62,736 nt of DNA from Deltaproteobacteria bacterium (GTDB lineage Bacteria; Myxococcota_A; Polyangia; JAAYKL01), in NCBI GenBank assembly GCA_016935665.1, contig JAFGQN010000013.1:1-62736 (forward strand), read 5' to 3'. Both the position numbers and the translations under genes were made by a program. How positions within the stretch are numbered: position 1 is the first letter of the stretch; the number at the start of each line of letters is the position of its first letter. The notes under the pieces are model-generated. The model had not been told where the DNA came from and ran no database searches. It worked only from the letters and a program-made list of their open reading frames with translations. Below, in pieces: positions 5,497 to 59,421 of the stretch.

Positions 5497-6678
5497 ATGA
5501 AAAAAATACTGCTTCTGATATTGATGGTGTTGCTGGCAACCGCCTGCGGTGGTGAAACAGATGGAAATGGTGATTCCAGTGATGGGGATAGTGACAATGA
5601 CAGCGACGGTGACTCGGATTCCGATAGCGACGGTGACAGTGACGGCGATTCCGATTCGGACAGCGATAGTGATTCGGATGGCGACAGTGATACGGACGGA
5701 GACAGCGATACGGATGGGGATTCGGATGGAGATGCCGATGGCGATTGTGAATTTGAATGTATTTCCCATTGCCGATCGTGGGGTGGAACACAACATGACG
5801 ACCAGAGCTGTGACGGTGACCTGAAGTGCTGCGAAGGCGCCATCGAACCCAGCGATGCAGATTCCGATACCGATGGCGACTCGGATACCGATGGTGACAC
5901 CGACAGCGATTCCGACGGGGATTCCGATTCAGATGGCGATTCGGACGCCGACTCGGATCCAGTGTTCCACATCTTTATGTTGATGGGTCAGTCAAACATG
6001 GCGGGATATGCGGCCTTCCAGGATTCCGACAAGAATACGGATGAGCGGCTCCAGGTGCTCGGCGGTTGCCAAAAACCATCGGGACAATGGAATGTGGCCA
6101 GTCCGCCTTTGAACGAGTGCGCCGGAAACGCATCTAATGTGGTTGGCCCAGGAGACTGGTTTGGCAAAACATTGCTGGAAAAACTTCCCGAGGGTGACAC
6201 TATCGGCCTGGTGGGTGTTGCCGTTAGCGGTATGTCCATTGACACGTTTATTGCCGGTGGGCAGCATCACCAATTAATCATGGACAAAATTGAAATTGCC
6301 AAAAAAGCACAGAATGCCCACTTTGAAGGCATTATCTTCCACCAGGGTGAGTCCGACAGTGGAAACAGCTCATGGCCAGGCAAAGTAGAGCAGTTGTACA
6401 ACGAAGTTAAAGCCGCGTGGGGAGTCGATTACGATGTTCCGTTCATCGCCGGTGAACTGCTGTACGGAGGATGTTGCGACTCCCACAATACCCAAGTGAA
6501 CACTCTGCCGTCGCGCAAGGATAATTTCTATGTCGTTTCCGCAGAAGGCCTTAAGGTGGATCCCAGTGACGTCCCCGCTGATGGAGCGACGAAATGGAAT
6601 GCCCATTTTGGCCATGATGACACTGTAGAATTAGGCAAACGTTTTGGTAAAAAGATGCTGGAAATCTTAGGCTGGTGA
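5497..6678 (+). CDS. surface lipoprotein: Asp/Ser/Gly linker plus SGNH esterase domain (CE6/sialate O-acetylesterase-like)
   Basis: The signal peptide MKKILLLILMVLLATAC ends in a lipobox. Two acidic Ser-Asp-Gly linkers (about residues 22-82 and 118-153) flank a small module with six cysteines (about 83-113, starting CEFECISHCRSW). From about residue 157 an esterase domain follows, with the nucleophile motif LMGQSNMAGY, the block IIFHQGESDS and a late NAHFGHDD that should carry the catalytic histidine. This order matches the SASA/CE6 acetyl-xylan or sialate esterase group. The likely role is deacetylation of plant or host glycans at the cell surface. A good ribosome site (AAAGGAGA) precedes the ATG. 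Confidence 0.85.
   Translation: MKKILLLILMVLLATACGGETDGNGDSSDGDSDNDSDGDSDSDSDGDSDGDSDSDSDSDSDGDSDTDGDSDTDGDSDGDADGDCEFECISHCRSWGGTQHDDQSCDGDLKCCEGAIEPSDADSDTDGDSDTDGDTDSDSDGDSDSDGDSDADSDPVFHIFMLMGQSNMAGYAAFQDSDKNTDERLQVLGGCQKPSGQWNVASPPLNECAGNASNVVGPGDWFGKTLLEKLPEGDTIGLVGVAVSGMSIDTFIAGGQHHQLIMDKIEIAKKAQNAHFEGIIFHQGESDSGNSSWPGKVEQLYNEVKAAWGVDYDVPFIAGELLYGGCCDSHNTQVNTLPSRKDNFYVVSAEGLKVDPSDVPADGATKWNAHFGHDDTVELGKRFGKKMLEILGW
5559..5958 (+). repeat. degenerate Asp-Ser/Gly/Thr codon repeats
   Basis: Bases about 5559-5739 and 5851-5958 are built from 6-base units such as GATTCG, GACAGC and GATGGC that encode alternating Asp-Ser, Asp-Gly and Asp-Thr. They form the flexible acidic tethers of the esterase lipoprotein. 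Their low complexity also creates long spurious open frames on the other strand. Confidence 0.85.
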
Positions 6679-15526: not shown

Positions 15527-17119
15527 TTATAAATCGATTACTCCCACACCGGCGTGGGCCTCGATAGTGGAACGCAGTGTGTCTGTGGACTCCAACACAT
15601 GGGAATAGGGGTAGGGGACATCTCCGTCACACACGCGTGCATCCGGAATGTCATCCACAGCGACGTCGCCAAAATCGTTTTGAATCTCTTCTATAAACCC
15701 GGTTGCCTGGGGCGATACGCTGCTGTCATACAGTGTCAATGGCGTTGCATATCCGTGAAATGCATTTAACTCCGCGCGAATACAGGCGTCATCTGCCGAA
15801 CTGACGCCAATGGCATCGGCCCCGTTCAGGGCAGTGTATTCGAACAGATTGTTGAATACGTGACCATGGCCATAGCGCATGATGAGCGCAGTGCGGAATA
15901 CGTTATCAAACCAGTTGTGGTGCCAGGTAATGTGCAGGAGACCATCGTTCCCGGCAACAGCTTCGTCGGATGCCCCTGCGATGAGCCCCTTGAAGTTATC
16001 GTGGAAATAGTTCCAGGATACGGTAATGTAGTCGCTGCCGCCGGTAATATCGAGCAGGCCATCCGAACCTGGGTTGCTGTCGTCGCGCACATTGGAGAGT
16101 TCACAATGATCTATCCAGATATGGTCCGACCCACTTATGGAGATGGCATCCCCTGTTCCACTTGCGACTTTGCGAATGGCCAGATTTCGAATGACAATAT
16201 TGCTGCTGCCGTTGATGTCAAAACCAATTCCGGCGAGTACAGGGGGATTTTCATCATCGGATATGCCCACTATGTACAGATTCTGTCTATTGAGTACTTC
16301 GATGCGATCAATATTCGGCAGGAGAGTGCCGATGATATTCAACGTCATTGGGACTGCACTCTCTCCCTCAATCAGCCCCTGCAACTGCATCGCATTGGAA
16401 ATATCGTGACCGTTTCCCGTATCTGCGGTGATGATTTCAAAAGGCGTTCCGGTACCTGTGACACCGGCGAATCCGGTATGCTTAAAAACAGTTGCGCCTG
16501 TATCCGGATCGCTGGCGGTTTCGCTTTCGGTTGCTGTGCCCGAATCTGTGGGACGAGTGATATCTGCCGTGGCTGAATCATCGGTATCGTCGGTATCAGT
16601 GCCCGGAACAACAGTGTCCGTTTGTGTTTTAGAGTCATCCGGATACGTGTCACCAGGTTCCATGTACGTAAAATGCGACGTCCACTCGTTGTCTGATGGC
16701 AAGATGACGCGCAGATAAATGATGTCGCCGGGTTTTGGTTTTACTTTTTCGATGGGCAGAATGCCCGTCAACTTATGCTGAGCGAATTGAGGAGTGACAT
16801 CCGTAAGCTCCAATGGCCAAATCGCTTCCTCTGTTTTGAATTTATTCGCATCGGTGGATTTGACCACGCGAGCGAACATCTGGAAATCCTCATCAATACT
16901 GATGCTCTGGGAGCCACAACCGAAATTGCGGTACACAATAGGCATCACAGCTCGCTCTCCCACGACGGTAATTTTAAGTTTGTTTGAAAGATGCTCAATA
17001 CTGGCAATGGTCATGGGGGCATCATTTGTATCTGTCCGCTCGCAGGCAGGGAGTGCAAAAAGCAAAGTCCAGGGCAGAACTATTCGACAAATAAAAAAGG
17101 CGGGCAAAATCGGTTTCAT
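15527..17119 (-). CDS. surface lipoprotein with Thr/Asp/Ser linker and pectate lyase (PL1) domain
   Basis: The likely start is 17119 (MKPILPAFFICRIV); the lipobox is LLFALPAC. A beta-rich domain of about 130 residues follows, then a linker (about 175-210) rich in Thr, Asp and Ser, then a parallel beta-helix of the pectate lyase family 1: NIVIRNLAIRKV, SGSDHIWIDHCELS, YITVSWNYFHDNFKG, HITWHHNWFDN and RYGHGHVFNNLFEY. These correspond to the calcium site and catalytic strand of PL1, although the usual RxPxxR is changed to RTALIMR. It probably cleaves polygalacturonate by beta-elimination at the cell surface. The divergence at the active site lowers certainty of activity. Confidence 0.85.
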   Translation of the reverse strand: MKPILPAFFICRIVLPWTLLFALPACERTDTNDAPMTIASIEHLSNKLKITVVGERAVMPIVYRNFGCGSQSISIDEDFQMFARVVKSTDANKFKTEEAIWPLELTDVTPQFAQHKLTGILPIEKVKPKPGDIIYLRVILPSDNEWTSHFTYMEPGDTYPDDSKTQTDTVVPGTDTDDTDDSATADITRPTDSGTATESETASDPDTGATVFKHTGFAGVTGTGTPFEIITADTGNGHDISNAMQLQGLIEGESAVPMTLNIIGTLLPNIDRIEVLNRQNLYIVGISDDENPPVLAGIGFDINGSSNIVIRNLAIRKVASGTGDAISISGSDHIWIDHCELSNVRDDSNPGSDGLLDITGGSDYITVSWNYFHDNFKGLIAGASDEAVAGNDGLLHITWHHNWFDNVFRTALIMRYGHGHVFNNLFEYTALNGADAIGVSSADDACIRAELNAFHGYATPLTLYDSSVSPQATGFIEEIQNDFGDVAVDDIPDARVCDGDVPYPYSHVLESTDTLRSTIEAHAGVGVIDL

Positions 17120-17373
17120 TTTCTCATCCTGCTTGAGTAAATGTATCATGAAATGCCGTAAACCTGTGTAATTTGTTTTGTGATGATGGATTTTTATATT
17201 TTTACTGTAATAGCTGGTAGAATATCGATGAGATTTGAGAAAACACCTTATTGCTAACTGTAGAAAACGAACCGGGGGAAGTCAGGACGAATTTATTCCA
17301 GGACGATATAAGTGCAGCAACCAGTGATCCAGTAATCTGCAGCATCGCAGGCAAGGTCGCCGGGCTGGCGTCC

Positions 17374-17991
17374 TTACGGACCGCGTAGATAAACCGGATC
17401 GTCGCTGGTCGCTGTGTCAATGGTGCTGTTTGTATCGGTTAAACTGTCGGTATCCAGCGAACTGGCTGTGTCTGCATTGCTGTCTGAATCCCTCGTGGGA
17501 TCGGTATCCACGGCCGTAAGACACTCCGGATCCAATGCAGTTTGGCCAATACAGAGCTCGCTTTTGCCACAGGGGTTTTCACAGCAAGGAACGGGGGTGC
17601 AGGGATCGCAGGACGCCAGATTGGCCAGACTGCAACCTGGGGTGCCGATAAATCGATAGTCGCCCTCCAGCAAACAACAGCCCCGGCAGTCACAGTCATT
17701 GGGCACCAGGGGTTCACATACTTTGTTGCATTGCGCCGCCTTTTGTGCACGACGTCCATCGCAATTGGTATCGACGGATGAATTGGTAGCGGTGTTGCTT
17801 CCGACGTCGTCTGTACCTGAACTGCTGTCTGCCCCAATGTCAATGCCCGGACTGGAATCGCCAGATAATGAATCGGAGTCGCTGCTGTGGGTGGCGTCTG
17901 TGGTTAGGTTTGTATCGCTATCGGTTCCATTTGTGTCATTGTCAGATCCATCGTCACTGTTGGCGCATGCAATAAAAAGCACGCAAAACAT
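17374..17991 (-). CDS. Cys-rich linker lipoprotein whose signal peptide is interrupted by an in-frame stop
   Basis: From the ATG at 17991 the product starts MFCVLFIACA, a lipobox without a positively charged N-region. Two Asp/Ser/Thr linkers (about 15-75 and 162-197) flank a Cys-rich module with CDCRGCC, CDPCTPVPCCENPCG and ELCIG. In the same frame an upstream ATG at 18024, with AGAAGAG at 6 bases, gives MNRHA, then TAA (18009-18007), then PTTVIMFCVLFIAC, a perfect lipoprotein signal apart from the stop. So the gene is probably inactivated by a nonsense change, uses a weak internal start, or the base is a sequencing error. After the terminal TAA the frame stays open for 26 protein-like codons (to 17296). 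Confidence 0.6.
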   Translation of the reverse strand: MFCVLFIACANSDDGSDNDTNGTDSDTNLTTDATHSSDSDSLSGDSSPGIDIGADSSSGTDDVGSNTATNSSVDTNCDGRRAQKAAQCNKVCEPLVPNDCDCRGCCLLEGDYRFIGTPGCSLANLASCDPCTPVPCCENPCGKSELCIGQTALDPECLTAVDTDPTRDSDSNADTASSLDTDSLTDTNSTIDTATSDDPVYLRGP

Positions 17992-18148
17992 TATGACAGT
18001 AGTCGGTTAAGCATGTCGGTTCATTAATAACTCTTCTGGTTTTCAAGCAATGCCGAATCGCTTCGGACCGAAGCGCATAACAGATTCCACACAGACTTTT
18101 CAAAAGGATTGATTTGAAAACCCAAATGCATCAAAGAAAAGAGTAAAT

Positions 18149-18165
18149 CCCATGCCTGCCATGGG
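18149..18165 (-). terminator. candidate terminator after the Cys-rich lipoprotein gene
   Basis: CCCATG-CCTGC-CATGGG is a perfect 6-base-stem hairpin. Read on the minus strand, downstream of the gene ending at 18215, it is followed by a T-rich stretch (ATTTACTCTTTTCTTT). The stem is short and the T-tract interrupted. Confidence 0.4.
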
Positions 18166-18214
18166 AAGGAACAATAATTTGGGTTTGTTCAGAGGAGAGA
18201 ACTATAAAACTGTT

Positions 18215-19477
18215 CTACTCTACAGTTATGAGTGGAAGCTCCCAGCATTCCTCCTGCTTGTAATCATCGAAAATCCCGCAACACTTTTGCCAGCACTGGT
18301 CAGCGCCGTCCGGGCCACGCATGCAGTAGTTGCTGCAGACGACGTCATCGGGTTTGACCTGGTGATCTGAGCAGTATCCTTCGCATCCCCACTCATCACA
18401 GGTTTCACTGCAACATTTGGCGAAGCAAGTGGGGAAATCGTCTTCCTCTGGGACGCAATAAACATCGCACGACTGAGGATCCTGCGGATATTCTGTAACG
18501 GTGCACTCGTCCCAGCATTCGTTTCCGCTGCAGCCTGTGCTGCAGCATTCCTCGTAGCAGTATTTTCCGTCACACCAGGTAGAACAGTAATATTCTCCGT
18601 GCCCCTGCCCCTCCATGCAATAGTAGTATGCCTCATAACAATGATCATGACAGAATTTGTCGTCCCATGCGCAGGAATCTGTGCAGTGGTCATAATCCTG
18701 TTCACACCGGTTTTTTGCCGGTTCCTTGCAATAGTAAAATGCCTCATAACAGTGATCATGGCAGAATTTGTCATCCCACGCGCAGGAGTCGAGGCAATAC
18801 CCATACTCCTCATCGCAGGTGTTTACAGGTATCGGCGGTTTCATGCATGAGTCATAGTTCATGAAGCACATTTCCTGGCAGTATTCGAATTCTTTCTCGT
18901 CCCAGTAGCAATAGGTCATATCCCTATCGGTTGGCATGTCGCATAAATACTTGTCCTTACAATCCACCAGACAATAGTCAAGTTCAACGTCGCACTTGAA
19001 TGGCGGATTCTCGGCGCATTCCTGCTCCATTTCATTGCATTTCGCGGAACAACCGTCGAAACCGTCTGCGTCCTCCTCGTAGGAGCCATACCAGTCGTAG
19101 CATTCGTCCATGCAATCGAAATACAGCACTTCGCAATATGCAAGGCCTGGGTTCAGGCACTCTGGAAACGTATTTTCGCAATCGTTTCGACATTCCATCA
19201 AGTCGAATTCAGGATCCTCGACGGAGATATAATCGCATTTCTGCACGCACAGCTCGAAATCCTTGCAATCCCAGTACCCGGGAGAGTCACTGTCGGGAAC
19301 GGTATCTTCATCGGTGCCAACCTCTGTATCGGTGTCTGCTTCCGCCACAGTATCTGCCGCGGTATCCTCACCCTCTCCACCTGGCAATTCGCAGGCAGTA
19401 ACCGTAAACAGCGCAAAAACTGTTAAAATAATGGACGGCCACGCAACTGTTATCAACCTGTCTTTTGTTTTTTTCAT
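18215..19477 (-). CDS. very Cys-rich lipoprotein with duplicated modules, unknown function
   Basis: A 420-residue protein with a lipoprotein signal (LFTVTAC) and a short Thr/Asp/Glu linker (about 35-67). The rest is packed with about 55 cysteines, mostly as C-x3-C and C-x6-C in acidic, aromatic sequence. A module with CLDSCAWDDKFCHDHCYEA at about residues 228-247 is repeated almost exactly at about 264-283 as CTDSCAWDDKFCHDHCYEA. The C-terminal third uses CC pairs (YEECCSTGC, FAKCCSETC, WQKCCG). No catalytic motif is visible. The cysteines are probably disulphide-bonded in a rigid surface stalk or binding protein. It sits between the other Cys-rich lipoprotein and a CE2 esterase. Confidence 0.75.
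   Translation of the reverse strand: MKKTKDRLITVAWPSIILTVFALFTVTACELPGGEGEDTAADTVAEADTDTEVGTDEDTVPDSDSPGYWDCKDFELCVQKCDYISVEDPEFDLMECRNDCENTFPECLNPGLAYCEVLYFDCMDECYDWYGSYEEDADGFDGCSAKCNEMEQECAENPPFKCDVELDYCLVDCKDKYLCDMPTDRDMTYCYWDEKEFEYCQEMCFMNYDSCMKPPIPVNTCDEEYGYCLDSCAWDDKFCHDHCYEAFYYCKEPAKNRCEQDYDHCTDSCAWDDKFCHDHCYEAYYYCMEGQGHGEYYCSTWCDGKYCYEECCSTGCSGNECWDECTVTEYPQDPQSCDVYCVPEEDDFPTCFAKCCSETCDEWGCEGYCSDHQVKPDDVVCSNYCMRGPDGADQCWQKCCGIFDDYKQEECWELPLITVE
18632..18803 (-). repeat. internal tandem duplication in the Cys-rich lipoprotein gene
   Basis: Bases about 18632-18693 and 18742-18803 are near-identical at the DNA level and encode the duplicated CAWDDKFCHDHCYEA module. The high nucleotide similarity implies a recent duplication within the gene. 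Confidence 0.75.
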
Positions 19478-19784: not shown

Positions 19785-20996
19785 ATGAATAAGCTGATTT
19801 TATTCGTGTTTTTGGTGCTTTTCGGGTGCAAGAACACCATTCCCATCAGGGATAACGCCATGCAGAATGCCGCAACTATTTCCCATTTGACTACCGATGA
19901 TCAGAATTCCCAATTGTTGCAGGATATTTCGCCACGCCATGAAATGATTCGCTATATGGGCCGGGTGGACTTCAGCAATGAAATCGGACCAGCGTTTTCC
20001 CATCCCGGCGTGAACCTGCGCGTGCGCTTCACCGGGACAAGTCTGCGCGTACGGCTGGATGACAACGCGTTGCGACAGTCGGTCGACACCATCAACTATT
20101 TTAATGTGGTGGTGGATGAATCCGCACCTGTGCGATTAAAGACAACTCCCGGACAACAGGAATACATTCTGGCGGAAAAGCTGTTGCCAGGGACCCATGA
20201 GGTGGTGCTCTTTAAAAGGACTGAGAGTAGTCATGCCGATGATTTGAATGTGGGCAAAATTTCGGTGCGCGGCTTCCGAATAGACGCTGGCGCGCGGTTG
20301 CTTGAACCATCGTCGCGGAAGTTGAAAATGGAGTTTATTGGCGACTCCATCACATGCGGGTATGGCAACGAATTGTCTGTGCACAATCCTGTGGACGATC
20401 ATTTTACCACGCATAATTCAAACGCGTATCTGGCGTATGGCGCCGTGGCAGCTCGAAAACTGAATGCCGAGTATGTGGCGGTGGCTTACTCCGGACGTGG
20501 CGTGGTGCGCAATTATGCAGGGCATGTATCGCCCACCATTCCAGAGATTTATTTGAAAACGCTGCCCGATGATCCCAACACGACAGTCTGGAATCCAGAG
20601 GATTATGTTCCGGATATTGTAGTGATTAACCTTGGTACCAACGATTTTTCGGAGGGACTGACCCCTGGGGCGGCCGTTGATGCGTTGACCCAAAACTACG
20701 CTGCTGGATATGAGGCGTTCCTCGCAAAACTAGTGAGTTACTATCCCGATGCACAATTTATTCTGGTTGTGGGCCCCATGCTTTCCGATGACTATCCGGA
20801 GGGCTACAATGCCCTCTCACGGGTGCGCCAGGTGCTGCAGTCACTGATAAAGAAAAAAAAGGAATCCGGCTCGAACAATATTCATCTGCTGGAACTGGCC
20901 ACTCAGCAGCCGCCCTTTGGCGAGGATTTCCATCCCACCGCAGCCACGCACGAACGAATGGCGAAGGAACTTGTTGATTTTATCTCTCGACTTTAA
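19785..20996 (+). CDS. lipoprotein SGNH esterase, carbohydrate esterase family 2-like
   Basis: The signal peptide MNKLILFVFLVLFGC carries a lipobox. A beta-jelly-roll domain (about residues 55-165: YMGRVDFSNEIGPAFSHPG, GTSLRVRLDD) precedes an SGNH hydrolase domain with MEFIGDSITCGYG (nucleophile Ser), VAYSGRGVVRNY, VINLGTNDFSEG and FHPTAATHERMA (catalytic His). This two-domain order is that of CE2 acetyl-xylan esterases. It likely removes acetyl groups from hemicellulose or pectin at the cell surface, complementing the nearby pectate lyase. It lacks the long acidic linker of its neighbours. Confidence 0.87.
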   Translation: MNKLILFVFLVLFGCKNTIPIRDNAMQNAATISHLTTDDQNSQLLQDISPRHEMIRYMGRVDFSNEIGPAFSHPGVNLRVRFTGTSLRVRLDDNALRQSVDTINYFNVVVDESAPVRLKTTPGQQEYILAEKLLPGTHEVVLFKRTESSHADDLNVGKISVRGFRIDAGARLLEPSSRKLKMEFIGDSITCGYGNELSVHNPVDDHFTTHNSNAYLAYGAVAARKLNAEYVAVAYSGRGVVRNYAGHVSPTIPEIYLKTLPDDPNTTVWNPEDYVPDIVVINLGTNDFSEGLTPGAAVDALTQNYAAGYEAFLAKLVSYYPDAQFILVVGPMLSDDYPEGYNALSRVRQVLQSLIKKKKESGSNNIHLLELATQQPPFGEDFHPTAATHERMAKELVDFISRL

Positions 20997-37506: not shown

Positions 37507-39195
37507 ATGAGGAGTCACGTATCTTTGTTTGGGATGTTAATCTATTTCAGTGTTTTTGTATCTGAGGGTTGTCAGATGATCTTCCCCAACTTTTATATCG
37601 ATACGGAGTCTGATGGTCAGGGCGAAACCGATGAGGTATCTGCTGATACGGATACGACGTTATTGACAGGTGCCGATACGGAAGAGGGATTCGCCATTGG
37701 CAATGGTGCTGTTGATAACGACGTTGCAAATAGTTCAGATGATACCAATCAACAAGCGACATCCGGAAGCAATTCAATGTTGGAATTGGATTCTGAGACT
37801 GGATACTCAAATCCGGTGATTGTCGATGACTCCATCCACAGCACAGATACAGCGACGAATACGGAAGCTCCTTTTGACAATGATTCTGACATAGCGGTAA
37901 TGACCGATACGAACACAGATACACATGCACACATCGAAACAGATGCCAATGCAGATAGTGTTTCAACGCAACCTGATACAGAATGCAGTACTGGTTCGCA
38001 TCGGTGTCTCGATAATCGATGTGCAAAAGACGATGACTCGACGGCTTGTGGGGATGCGTGTGTGATGTGTGATGTGCCCGATAGCGGCATAGCTGCATGT
38101 GTGGATGGACAGTGCCAGATGGAATGTGGTGCGTTGTTGCTTTGTAATGATTCCTGTGTAAATCCCGCAATCAACCTTCATCATTGTGGTGCCTGCAATC
38201 ACGATTGTGGCGATGGGGCATCGTGTGCTGGTGGTATTTGTTCTGAAGCAGAGATGACTATTAATCCTGTATCTGCTGGTGGGGGAATAGCGATAGAAGA
38301 AAGTGGCGTTTACTTTAGTGATGGTACGACCATTTTTATGTGTCCGCACGGAGGTTGTAAACTCGCGCCACAACAGATTTGGAGCGAGGCCCGGATAAGA
38401 AATCTTGTGGCCGGCGCAGGATATTTGGCATGGGAGGGGAGCAGTTCGGTTGGGAACAATGCCATCGTGCTGTGCGAGATTGAGAACTGCAACCCGGAAA
38501 TTATTGACAGCAGCTCCAGGGCGGACGCTGTGGATACACCTTTTATTGCCGGTCAACGTTTAATTCATCATCATGATATTTGGGTTGCTCCTGAAGAAGT
38601 TGCTGATACATTGGAGTGCCATTCGTTGGGAGTTGATAGCTGCAAAGTGCAAGATTTAATTCGTGGTGAATCCCCATTCACTGCGTCAACAGAAACGCTG
38701 GTGTTTTATCCGACGTACGCTGATGCCCCCTCAAGTCTGATCGCCTGTGAACTGGAAGCGCCAGTGTTTGTGCCAAAGACGTTGGCGTCGCATGCGGGGG
38801 TAAATGATTTGGCAATTTATGGGGATGTACTTTTTATGGCCTGGAAAGGTGTCGTGGGGCCTTCGGGAGAAAAGAATTTAGTTCGAGCCTGCACCATCTC
38901 CTCTGGATGCAGTGATTTGGCAAACTATGTCTCTCCGTCAAGCGTTGAGGATATCGTGGAAATTGAAGTGAACGAATATGGTGAATTGTACTGGCTCAAT
39001 GGTGGTCCCAACGGCTCAGTGTGGATGTGTAAGGCACCTGATTGCACCGGAGGCCCACGAAAAATCGCTTCTGGGCAGTCGTATCCTAAGTTTCTTAGGG
39101 TATACGGCGATAATCTTTTCTGGGCAAATTTGGGAGATGATACTGCTCCAGCTGCCAACCCATACGGTCTGAAACGGTTGACTCGCCCCCTGTAG
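37507..39195 (+). CDS. linker lipoprotein with Stig1-like Cys module and beta-propeller-like domain
   Basis: A 562-residue protein starting MRSHVSLFGMLIYF, with a lipobox VSEGC. A long acidic Thr/Asp/Ser/Asn linker fills about residues 35-170. A Cys-rich zone follows, ending in the Stig1-like NLHHCGACNHDCGDGASC. The remaining 300 residues repeat a pattern of short beta strands with Cys pairs (VYFSDGTTIFMCPHGGCK, AIVLCEIENC, SVWMCKAPDC), typical of myxobacterial surface propeller-like proteins. No catalytic residues are evident. A binding role at the cell surface is inferred. Confidence 0.78.
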   Translation: MRSHVSLFGMLIYFSVFVSEGCQMIFPNFYIDTESDGQGETDEVSADTDTTLLTGADTEEGFAIGNGAVDNDVANSSDDTNQQATSGSNSMLELDSETGYSNPVIVDDSIHSTDTATNTEAPFDNDSDIAVMTDTNTDTHAHIETDANADSVSTQPDTECSTGSHRCLDNRCAKDDDSTACGDACVMCDVPDSGIAACVDGQCQMECGALLLCNDSCVNPAINLHHCGACNHDCGDGASCAGGICSEAEMTINPVSAGGGIAIEESGVYFSDGTTIFMCPHGGCKLAPQQIWSEARIRNLVAGAGYLAWEGSSSVGNNAIVLCEIENCNPEIIDSSSRADAVDTPFIAGQRLIHHHDIWVAPEEVADTLECHSLGVDSCKVQDLIRGESPFTASTETLVFYPTYADAPSSLIACELEAPVFVPKTLASHAGVNDLAIYGDVLFMAWKGVVGPSGEKNLVRACTISSGCSDLANYVSPSSVEDIVEIEVNEYGELYWLNGGPNGSVWMCKAPDCTGGPRKIASGQSYPKFLRVYGDNLFWANLGDDTAPAANPYGLKRLTRPL

Positions 39196-58569: not shown

Positions 58570-59421
58570 ATGAACGGAATTGGTCGCAGTTTCACGTGTG
58601 TTGTATTTTGTATTGGTCGGCTATTTGTTGTCACGGTGTTTTGCGTTAGCTGTCACAAAGCGGTGTCATCAGGCAATGATACAGGAACCGACAGCTCTTC
58701 GGATGCGGATGCGGATACGGGTGGTGACACGGATGCGGATGCCGATTCGGATACGGATGTTGATTCGGATACGGGCAGTGACCTGGATACCGATGTCAAT
58801 ACGGATACCGATGACGATACGGATACGGATACGGATACGGATGCGGATTCCGATTCAGTGAACGATTCGGATACTGGGTCAATCTCCGACACGGATTCTG
58901 AGACTGACACCGGAACAATTGATTTTCGTGAGCCCGAAATTCACCGACCGGAAGCGATCAACTGTGAAAACGTACACTCTCCTGAAGAACCGCCTCTGGA
59001 TGCGGAAGGCAATTGTCAGCAGCATTCCGATTGCACCGAGGGACAGAATGGCAAGTGTGTGCAGCTGGGGATTGGGGCAAGAGGGTACGAATATTATTGT
59101 GTGTATGATACGTGTTATCTGGATGCGGAGTGCGAACAGGAAGGAATGAATCTTTGTTTCTGTTCCGCCAGAGAAGAAGCGCATTGTTTCCAATATGGAA
59201 ATTGCCAGGTGGACGCCGATTGTGGGGATGGTGGCTACTGCTCGCCATCCTCCAGCGATCATTGCGGATATTACCGGTACATAGATGGATTTTATTGCCA
59301 TACGCCCAGGGACACGTGCATGGATGACAAAGACTGTACCGAAGATGAATTTTGCAATTTCGATGTGTACCGCAATCTGTGGAATTGTGTGCCATACGAC
59401 AACGGTTGCATGATTGGATAG
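58570..59421 (+). CDS. linker lipoprotein with Cys-rich C-terminal domain, unknown function
   Basis: A 283-residue protein starting MNGIGRSFTCVVF after GAAGGAAT. The signal ends VFCVSC, a plausible lipobox. An Asp/Thr/Ser/Ala linker covers about residues 40-115. The C-terminal 165 residues have about 18 cysteines in repeats built as D-C/x-C units: CQQHSDCTEGQNGKCVQLG, CYLDAECEQEGMNLCFC, CQVDADCGDGGYC and CMDDKDCTEDEFCNF. These resemble the small DC-repeats of delta-proteobacterial surface proteins. No catalytic residues visible. Confidence 0.75.
   Translation: MNGIGRSFTCVVFCIGRLFVVTVFCVSCHKAVSSGNDTGTDSSSDADADTGGDTDADADSDTDVDSDTGSDLDTDVNTDTDDDTDTDTDTDADSDSVNDSDTGSISDTDSETDTGTIDFREPEIHRPEAINCENVHSPEEPPLDAEGNCQQHSDCTEGQNGKCVQLGIGARGYEYYCVYDTCYLDAECEQEGMNLCFCSAREEAHCFQYGNCQVDADCGDGGYCSPSSSDHCGYYRYIDGFYCHTPRDTCMDDKDCTEDEFCNFDVYRNLWNCVPYDNGCMIG
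58680..58915 (+). repeat. degenerate Asp-Ala/Thr/Ser codon repeats
   Basis: Six-base units such as GATGCG, GATACG and GATTCG repeat over about 235 bases and encode the Asp-rich tether of the lipoprotein. The minus strand shows a spurious Ser/Val-rich open frame as a result. Confidence 0.8.

Follow-up and report, generated by a model that had tools for sequence, protein, structure and literature searches.

The window analyzed here, a 62,736-nt stretch of contig JAFGQN010000013.1, carries on its minus strand an uninterrupted open reading frame for a 420-residue protein with 55 cysteines, i.e., 13.1% of its residues (Table 1). A good ribosome site and the purifying selection acting on its paralogues mark this as a genuine gene; its GC content (0.496) matches that of the window (0.503). 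The product has the marks of a bacterial lipoprotein, with a signal peptide and lipobox leading to the lipid-anchor cysteine (FALFTVTA-C29; TFVA-C and GAG-C in the paralogues). The mature chain is acidic and aromatic (C 14.0%, D 13.8%, E 12.0%, Y 8.2%), with a net charge of -80. The initial annotation had described about 55 cysteines (about 13%) arranged in C-x3-C and CC patterns in acidic, aromatic sequence, all of which was borne out (20 CX3C, three CC), with the strand, then unstated, being minus. Its term "surface lipoprotein" holds for the lipoprotein part, by virtue of the lipobox and acidic linker, while surface exposure is a property that we infer.

Table 1. Features of the cysteine-rich lipoprotein gene, in window coordinates
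Feature	Position	Strand	Basis
Whole gene, 420-aa Cys-rich lipoprotein	18215..19477	-	ORF with 55 Cys; AAGGAG ribosome site upstream of ATG
Signal peptide, aa 1-28, ending FTVTA	19394..19477	-	Sequence: charged N-terminus, then hydrophobic stretch
Lipobox cysteine C29 (VTA-C)	19391..19393	-	Lipobox fit; Cys at equivalent place in both paralogues
Acidic D/T/E-rich linker, aa 30-70	19268..19390	-	Sequence; similar linkers in other window/phylum lipoproteins
Type I hairpin module A (predicted), C-x5-C-x3-C-x14-C-x3-C-x6-C, aa 71-107	19157..19267	-	Cys spacing; A/B profile matches 16-Cys domain hairpin
Type I hairpin module B (predicted), aa 115-154	19016..19135	-	Cys spacing
Type I hairpin module C (predicted), longer loop with two extra Cys, aa 162-211	18845..18994	-	Cys spacing
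Type I hairpin module D (predicted), core CAWDDKFCHDHCYE, aa 221-250	18728..18817	-	Cys spacing; AF2 helices
Type I hairpin module E (predicted), core CAWDDKFCHDHCYE, aa 258-287	18617..18706	-	Cys spacing; AF2 helices
Type II module F, C-x3-C-x4-C-x3-CC-x3-C-x4-C-x3-C, aa 298-325	18503..18586	-	Cys spacing
Type II module G, aa 337-369	18371..18469	-	Cys spacing
Type II module H, shortened, aa 381-411	18245..18337	-	Cys spacing
Terminator-like hairpin, ~50 bases downstream of stop	18148..18166	-	Fits the pattern, but without enrichment over shuffles

Lipoprotein genes for plant-wall degradation share the window: a CE2/SGNH esterase gene (19785-20996, plus strand) adjoins the cysteine-rich gene in divergent orientation, and a pectate lyase (15527-17149, minus) and a SASA esterase (5497-6678, plus) are encoded as well. 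The downstream same-strand neighbor (17374-17991, minus) specifies another acidic cysteine-rich lipoprotein, of 205 residues with 17 cysteines and without a family match. Further away, one lipoprotein (58570-59421, plus) combines a long DTDTD linker with some 20 cysteines and yields only a sub-threshold Dickkopf_N match, and another (37507-39195, plus) has a cysteine-rich region with sub-threshold likeness to Stig1.

The 54 cysteines besides the lipid-anchor residue form five modules of type I (C-x5/6-C-x3-C-(loop)-C-x3-C-x6-C), followed by three of type II. The 20 CX3C pairs lie about fourfold above chance (4.9 in 5000 shuffles, maximum 13), and the i+4 and i+7 spacings of the cysteines place them on one helix face. 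For the tandem modules D-E, AlphaFold2 (with an input of two rows of the same protein, A-B being the second; pTM 0.61) returned two helical hairpins at a pLDDT of 90.9 (helices 2-12, 19-33, 35-49, 56-71). Structure prediction, proposed as a check at the outset, was thus confident for D-E; at full length, the single-sequence model reached a pLDDT of 42, too poor for use. Foldseek and VIA searches with the D-E model found nothing significant (best E 1.9, best Z 4.6). The nearest PDB neighbors, all weak, are themselves disulfide helical hairpins, namely vicilin leader peptides (matched at E 0.03 by the profile of a 16-cysteine domain introduced below), a QCR 7.8 kDa protein, complex I chains, and neurotoxin B-IV. 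The type I modules are accordingly modeled as helical hairpins, each probably riveted by three disulfides, for which a ladder of C1-C6, C2-C5, and C3-C4 would be compatible with the helix geometry.

That the cysteines are oxidized, as the description "disulfide-rich" implied, finds support in this confident hairpin model, in even cysteine counts, and in the VKOR complement of the genome. Cysteines other than the lipid-anchor residue number 54, 54, and 36 in the three paralogous proteins, and counts are even in 13 of the 15 cysteine-rich lipoproteins listed, as full pairing into disulfides would predict. VKOR can generate disulfides in the envelope; four VKOR genes occur in this genome (G000: C13, C177, C65, C45), compared with matches in 3 of 14 control genomes, which suggests a heavy oxidative-folding capacity.

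Among the genomes searched, the two paralogues are present only in this one; they are 45% (L002/L184; 438 aa, 55 Cys) and 34% (L003/L185; 375 aa, 37 Cys) identical to the 420-residue protein. A gene adjoining the third paralogue (L185:6983-8380, minus) matches YJL171C/Tos1, a family named for fungal cell-wall proteins. Comparison within and between paralogues bears directly on the age of the internal repeat, for which a recent and nearly exact DNA duplication (18632-18693 and 18742-18803) had been claimed. In the correct register (offset 111), the two 62-nt stretches agree at 50 positions, and over 30 codons, modules D and E share 72 of 90 nucleotides with 7 amino-acid changes. The 14-codon core AWDDKFCHDHCYE is identical at the protein level in all five copies across the three paralogues, with each pair of copies separated by 4 to 7 synonymous codon changes. 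Moreover, module D resembles the D module of the paralogue (CLDSC) and module E its E module (CTDSC), with the order kept, so the D/E duplication predates the gene duplication. The duplication is thus old and constrained, and a recent origin is ruled out.

Searches for relatives were largely negative. No sequence family in Pfam, NCBIfam, or PDB matched the lipoprotein; scanning genome and viral contigs with degenerate peptides brought up no relative; tblastn against plasmids and phages gave no matches; and a cysteine-spacing DNA pattern run on genome contigs retrieved, among the matches listed, only chance or low-complexity hits. With the full protein, matches across the phylum were confined to the signal and linker. 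Type II modules found no match in ten further genomes (a search run without a positive control, the positive-controlled search covering the own genome only), nor against the profile of the 16-cysteine domain. Elsewhere in the class, the searches recovered neither type of module, with the exception of one weak lead at E 0.035 (L193, from the same genus), a lipoprotein that combines a DSDSD linker, a cysteine-rich domain, and a GH45 endoglucanase.

This lead opened onto a domain of wider distribution. In relatives, the L193-type cysteine domain is joined to GH45, GH5, GH18, GH19, LNR, and one unassigned domain, and it sits between the lipoprotein linker and the GH45/GH5/GH18/GH19 domains in L193:993-2303, L195:721-2007, L201:1234-2856, L210:275-2167, and L212:3-1178. 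An alignment of ten copies (A8) has 16 invariant cysteines; the domain occurs in 22 of 377 genomes of the phylum (E<=1e-4) and 21 times in the own genome (E<=0.1), where some copies adjoin CBM6 and others belong to two-domain lipoproteins. It is covered by no Pfam or NCBIfam model; Pfam matched single members in two isolated cases, the better of them at E 0.003. Two bacterial lipoproteins (L205:1471-2496, L218:1474-2469) carry four LNR (Notch) repeats ahead of the 16-cysteine domain. In the own genome, L254 to L259 and L261 are lipoproteins made up of paired 16-Cys-like domains only, with 30 to 44 cysteines besides the lipid cysteine, the counts being all even.

By hhalign, the type I module pairs precisely with the hairpin at the center of the 16-cysteine domain (probability 72-81%, E ~1e-5), and the score of 25.4 exceeds all 200 of 200 shuffles of the domain's non-cysteine columns (maximum 21.3), such that the profile similarity extends beyond cysteine spacing. 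Taken alone, the rows of modules A and B match this hairpin with a score above all of 100 column shuffles, whereas for D and E alone, 18 of 100 shuffles reach the observed score. The profile search with the repeated module that had been recommended thus succeeds for type I modules jointly and fails for D/E, the signal being that of modules A and B. The lipoprotein lacks the full set of 16 invariant cysteines, with only the five-cysteine hairpin part aligning. From the profile comparison, the type I hairpin is probably homologous to the central hairpin of the 16-cysteine domain. The assertion that no known bacterial family has this composition is upheld as regards Pfam, NCBIfam, and the sequences in PDB, but the hairpin matches an uncatalogued, phylum-wide cysteine-rich domain on carbohydrate-active enzymes.

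Our preferred reading, to which we assign a probability of about 50%, is that of a disulfide-laddered, surface-anchored, noncatalytic lipoprotein with which a polysaccharide-degrading bacterium, rich in enzymes for plant and fungal walls, displays its hairpins or binds polymers. The anatomy behind this reading is well supported. An exported, lipid-anchored protein would use a flexible acidic linker to present five laddered helical hairpins and three smaller cysteine modules. In every type I module, two antiparallel helices with six cysteines paired as above would form a compact, protease-resistant bead, with successive beads linked via 7-9 residue connectors. Outside the cell, the chain would most likely provide multivalent display or binding, as an accessory factor holding or contacting plant or fungal wall polysaccharide; polymer binding is what we infer from the domain company of the relatives, the lipoprotein itself having no recognizable catalytic domain. 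Its type I hairpin would be a repeat-expanded relative of the one inside the 16-cysteine accessory domain that this lineage has joined to cellulases, chitinases, and CBM6, and the W-D-D-K-F-C-H-D-H-C-Y-E patch, repeated in D and E, would be the likely specific binding site, be it for a ligand or a Ca/Zn ion. Counting against this reading are the low confidence of the full-length fold, the confinement of the confident model to two rows of one protein, the failure of D/E alone to exceed shuffles, the want of common conserved gene neighbors among the three paralogues, and the position of the p2 paralogue beside an efflux system rather than CAZymes. A further step, which we put forward as a tentative and on balance doubtful proposal, is that the hairpin is a type of bacterial substrate-binding module not described before, occurring once within the 16-cysteine domain of cellulases and chitinases; in the lipoprotein, it would have been multiplied to give a noncatalytic, multivalent scaffold at the surface whose D/H/E/W binding core is new.

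The adhesion or stalk function suggested at first remains viable. As a mechanical stalk or armor, the hairpin beads would form a rigid, protease-proof outer-membrane spacer devoid of a specific ligand, a reading in keeping with tandem beads on an acidic linker, with the protease resistance expected of dense disulfides, and with the placement of similar cysteine domains between anchor linker and enzyme in the GH45 and GH5 lipoproteins. A spacer would need no fixed surface, however, yet CAWDDKFCHDHCYE is constant in all five copies that the three paralogues contain, against a divergence to 34-45% identity elsewhere in the sequence, and we regard this alternative as rather unlikely.

Less probable still is a metal binder, in which the D/H/E-rich core of D and E, or the thiols, would bind Ca, Zn, Cu, or Fe. 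The protein is very acidic and has invariant D, D, H, D, H, and E residues around the hairpin loop; however, the core is confined to two of the five hairpins, no Pfam metal-binding family matches, and even cysteine counts favor disulfides. Clustered-thiol binding as in metallothioneins or zinc ribbons is disfavored because CXC and CXXC pairs are absent (0 CX1-2C, against 12.6 in 5000 shuffles, minimum 3). What survives of the metal-binding suggestion is thus a possible D/H/E site in the D-E core.

Under the preferred display or polymer-binding reading, one large-genome bacterial lineage would have based its machinery for polysaccharides at the cell surface on helical hairpins with many disulfide bonds, a fold familiar chiefly in plants, venoms, and mitochondria. 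The 27 predicted disulfides in one lipoprotein would also represent an unusual load on bacterial oxidative folding. The 16-cysteine CAZyme-associated domain may be the more valuable result; with it, cellulases and chitinases would have a new accessory module, absent from Pfam, NCBIfam, and PDB, and the domain is directly testable because it is attached to assayable enzymes.

Among known systems, the twin-CX3C small Tim and CHCH (CX9C) proteins of mitochondria are likewise helical hairpins held by paired cysteine motifs; they are not bacterial, and the lipoprotein gives no Pfam match. The letters H-D-x-C-Y in the D/E core recall the HD-x-CY motif of phospholipase A2, but the lipoprotein is without a calcium loop or CCxxHDxC, its Cys-His spacing differs, and Pfam offers no match up to E 10.

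Plant alpha-hairpinins and vicilin-buried peptides are similar in predicted fold. Their four-cysteine core, CX3C-X4-20-CX3C (PMC11591084), with nested Cys1-Cys4 and Cys2-Cys3 disulfides (PMC7191063), recurs as spacing in modules A, B, D, and E (the loop of C holds extra cysteines), and the AF2 model of D-E (pLDDT 90.9, a prediction only) has the same helix-loop-helix form. By this analogy, a secreted antimicrobial, protease-inhibiting, or predatory effector could be imagined, as the predicted helical-hairpin Cys ladder is shared with plant hairpinins that bind fungal walls and inhibit trypsin (PMC7191063, PMC11591084) and the host phylum is characterized by very large genomes, but we consider it highly improbable given a long, lipid-anchored, anionic protein, hairpinins acting via a cationic cluster, and no immunity gene or export cassette seen adjoining the gene. 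The opposite charge also counts against our preferred display or polymer-binding reading. The lipoprotein is bacterial, anionic, and lipid-anchored, with an extra cysteine at +7, whereas hairpinins are plant proteins with a cationic cluster, released as peptides; PDB sequence searches with the protein and the type I profile recovered no hairpinin at E<=10. On these charge and homology grounds, it falls outside that plant family, although by analogy it would work like a chain of alpha-hairpinins.

The 16-cysteine domain (A8) is alike in its central C-x5/6-C-x3-C-n-C-x3-C hairpin, its lipoprotein anchor with a D/S/T linker, and its polysaccharide context. Compared to it, the lipoprotein dispenses with the flanking CxxC-type part, the C-x2-C-x2-C-x3-C tail, and a catalytic domain, and adds a third rung (x6-C) and five hairpin repeats. 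It is a real, unusual, and unnamed protein, yet one whose predicted fold is of a known kind.
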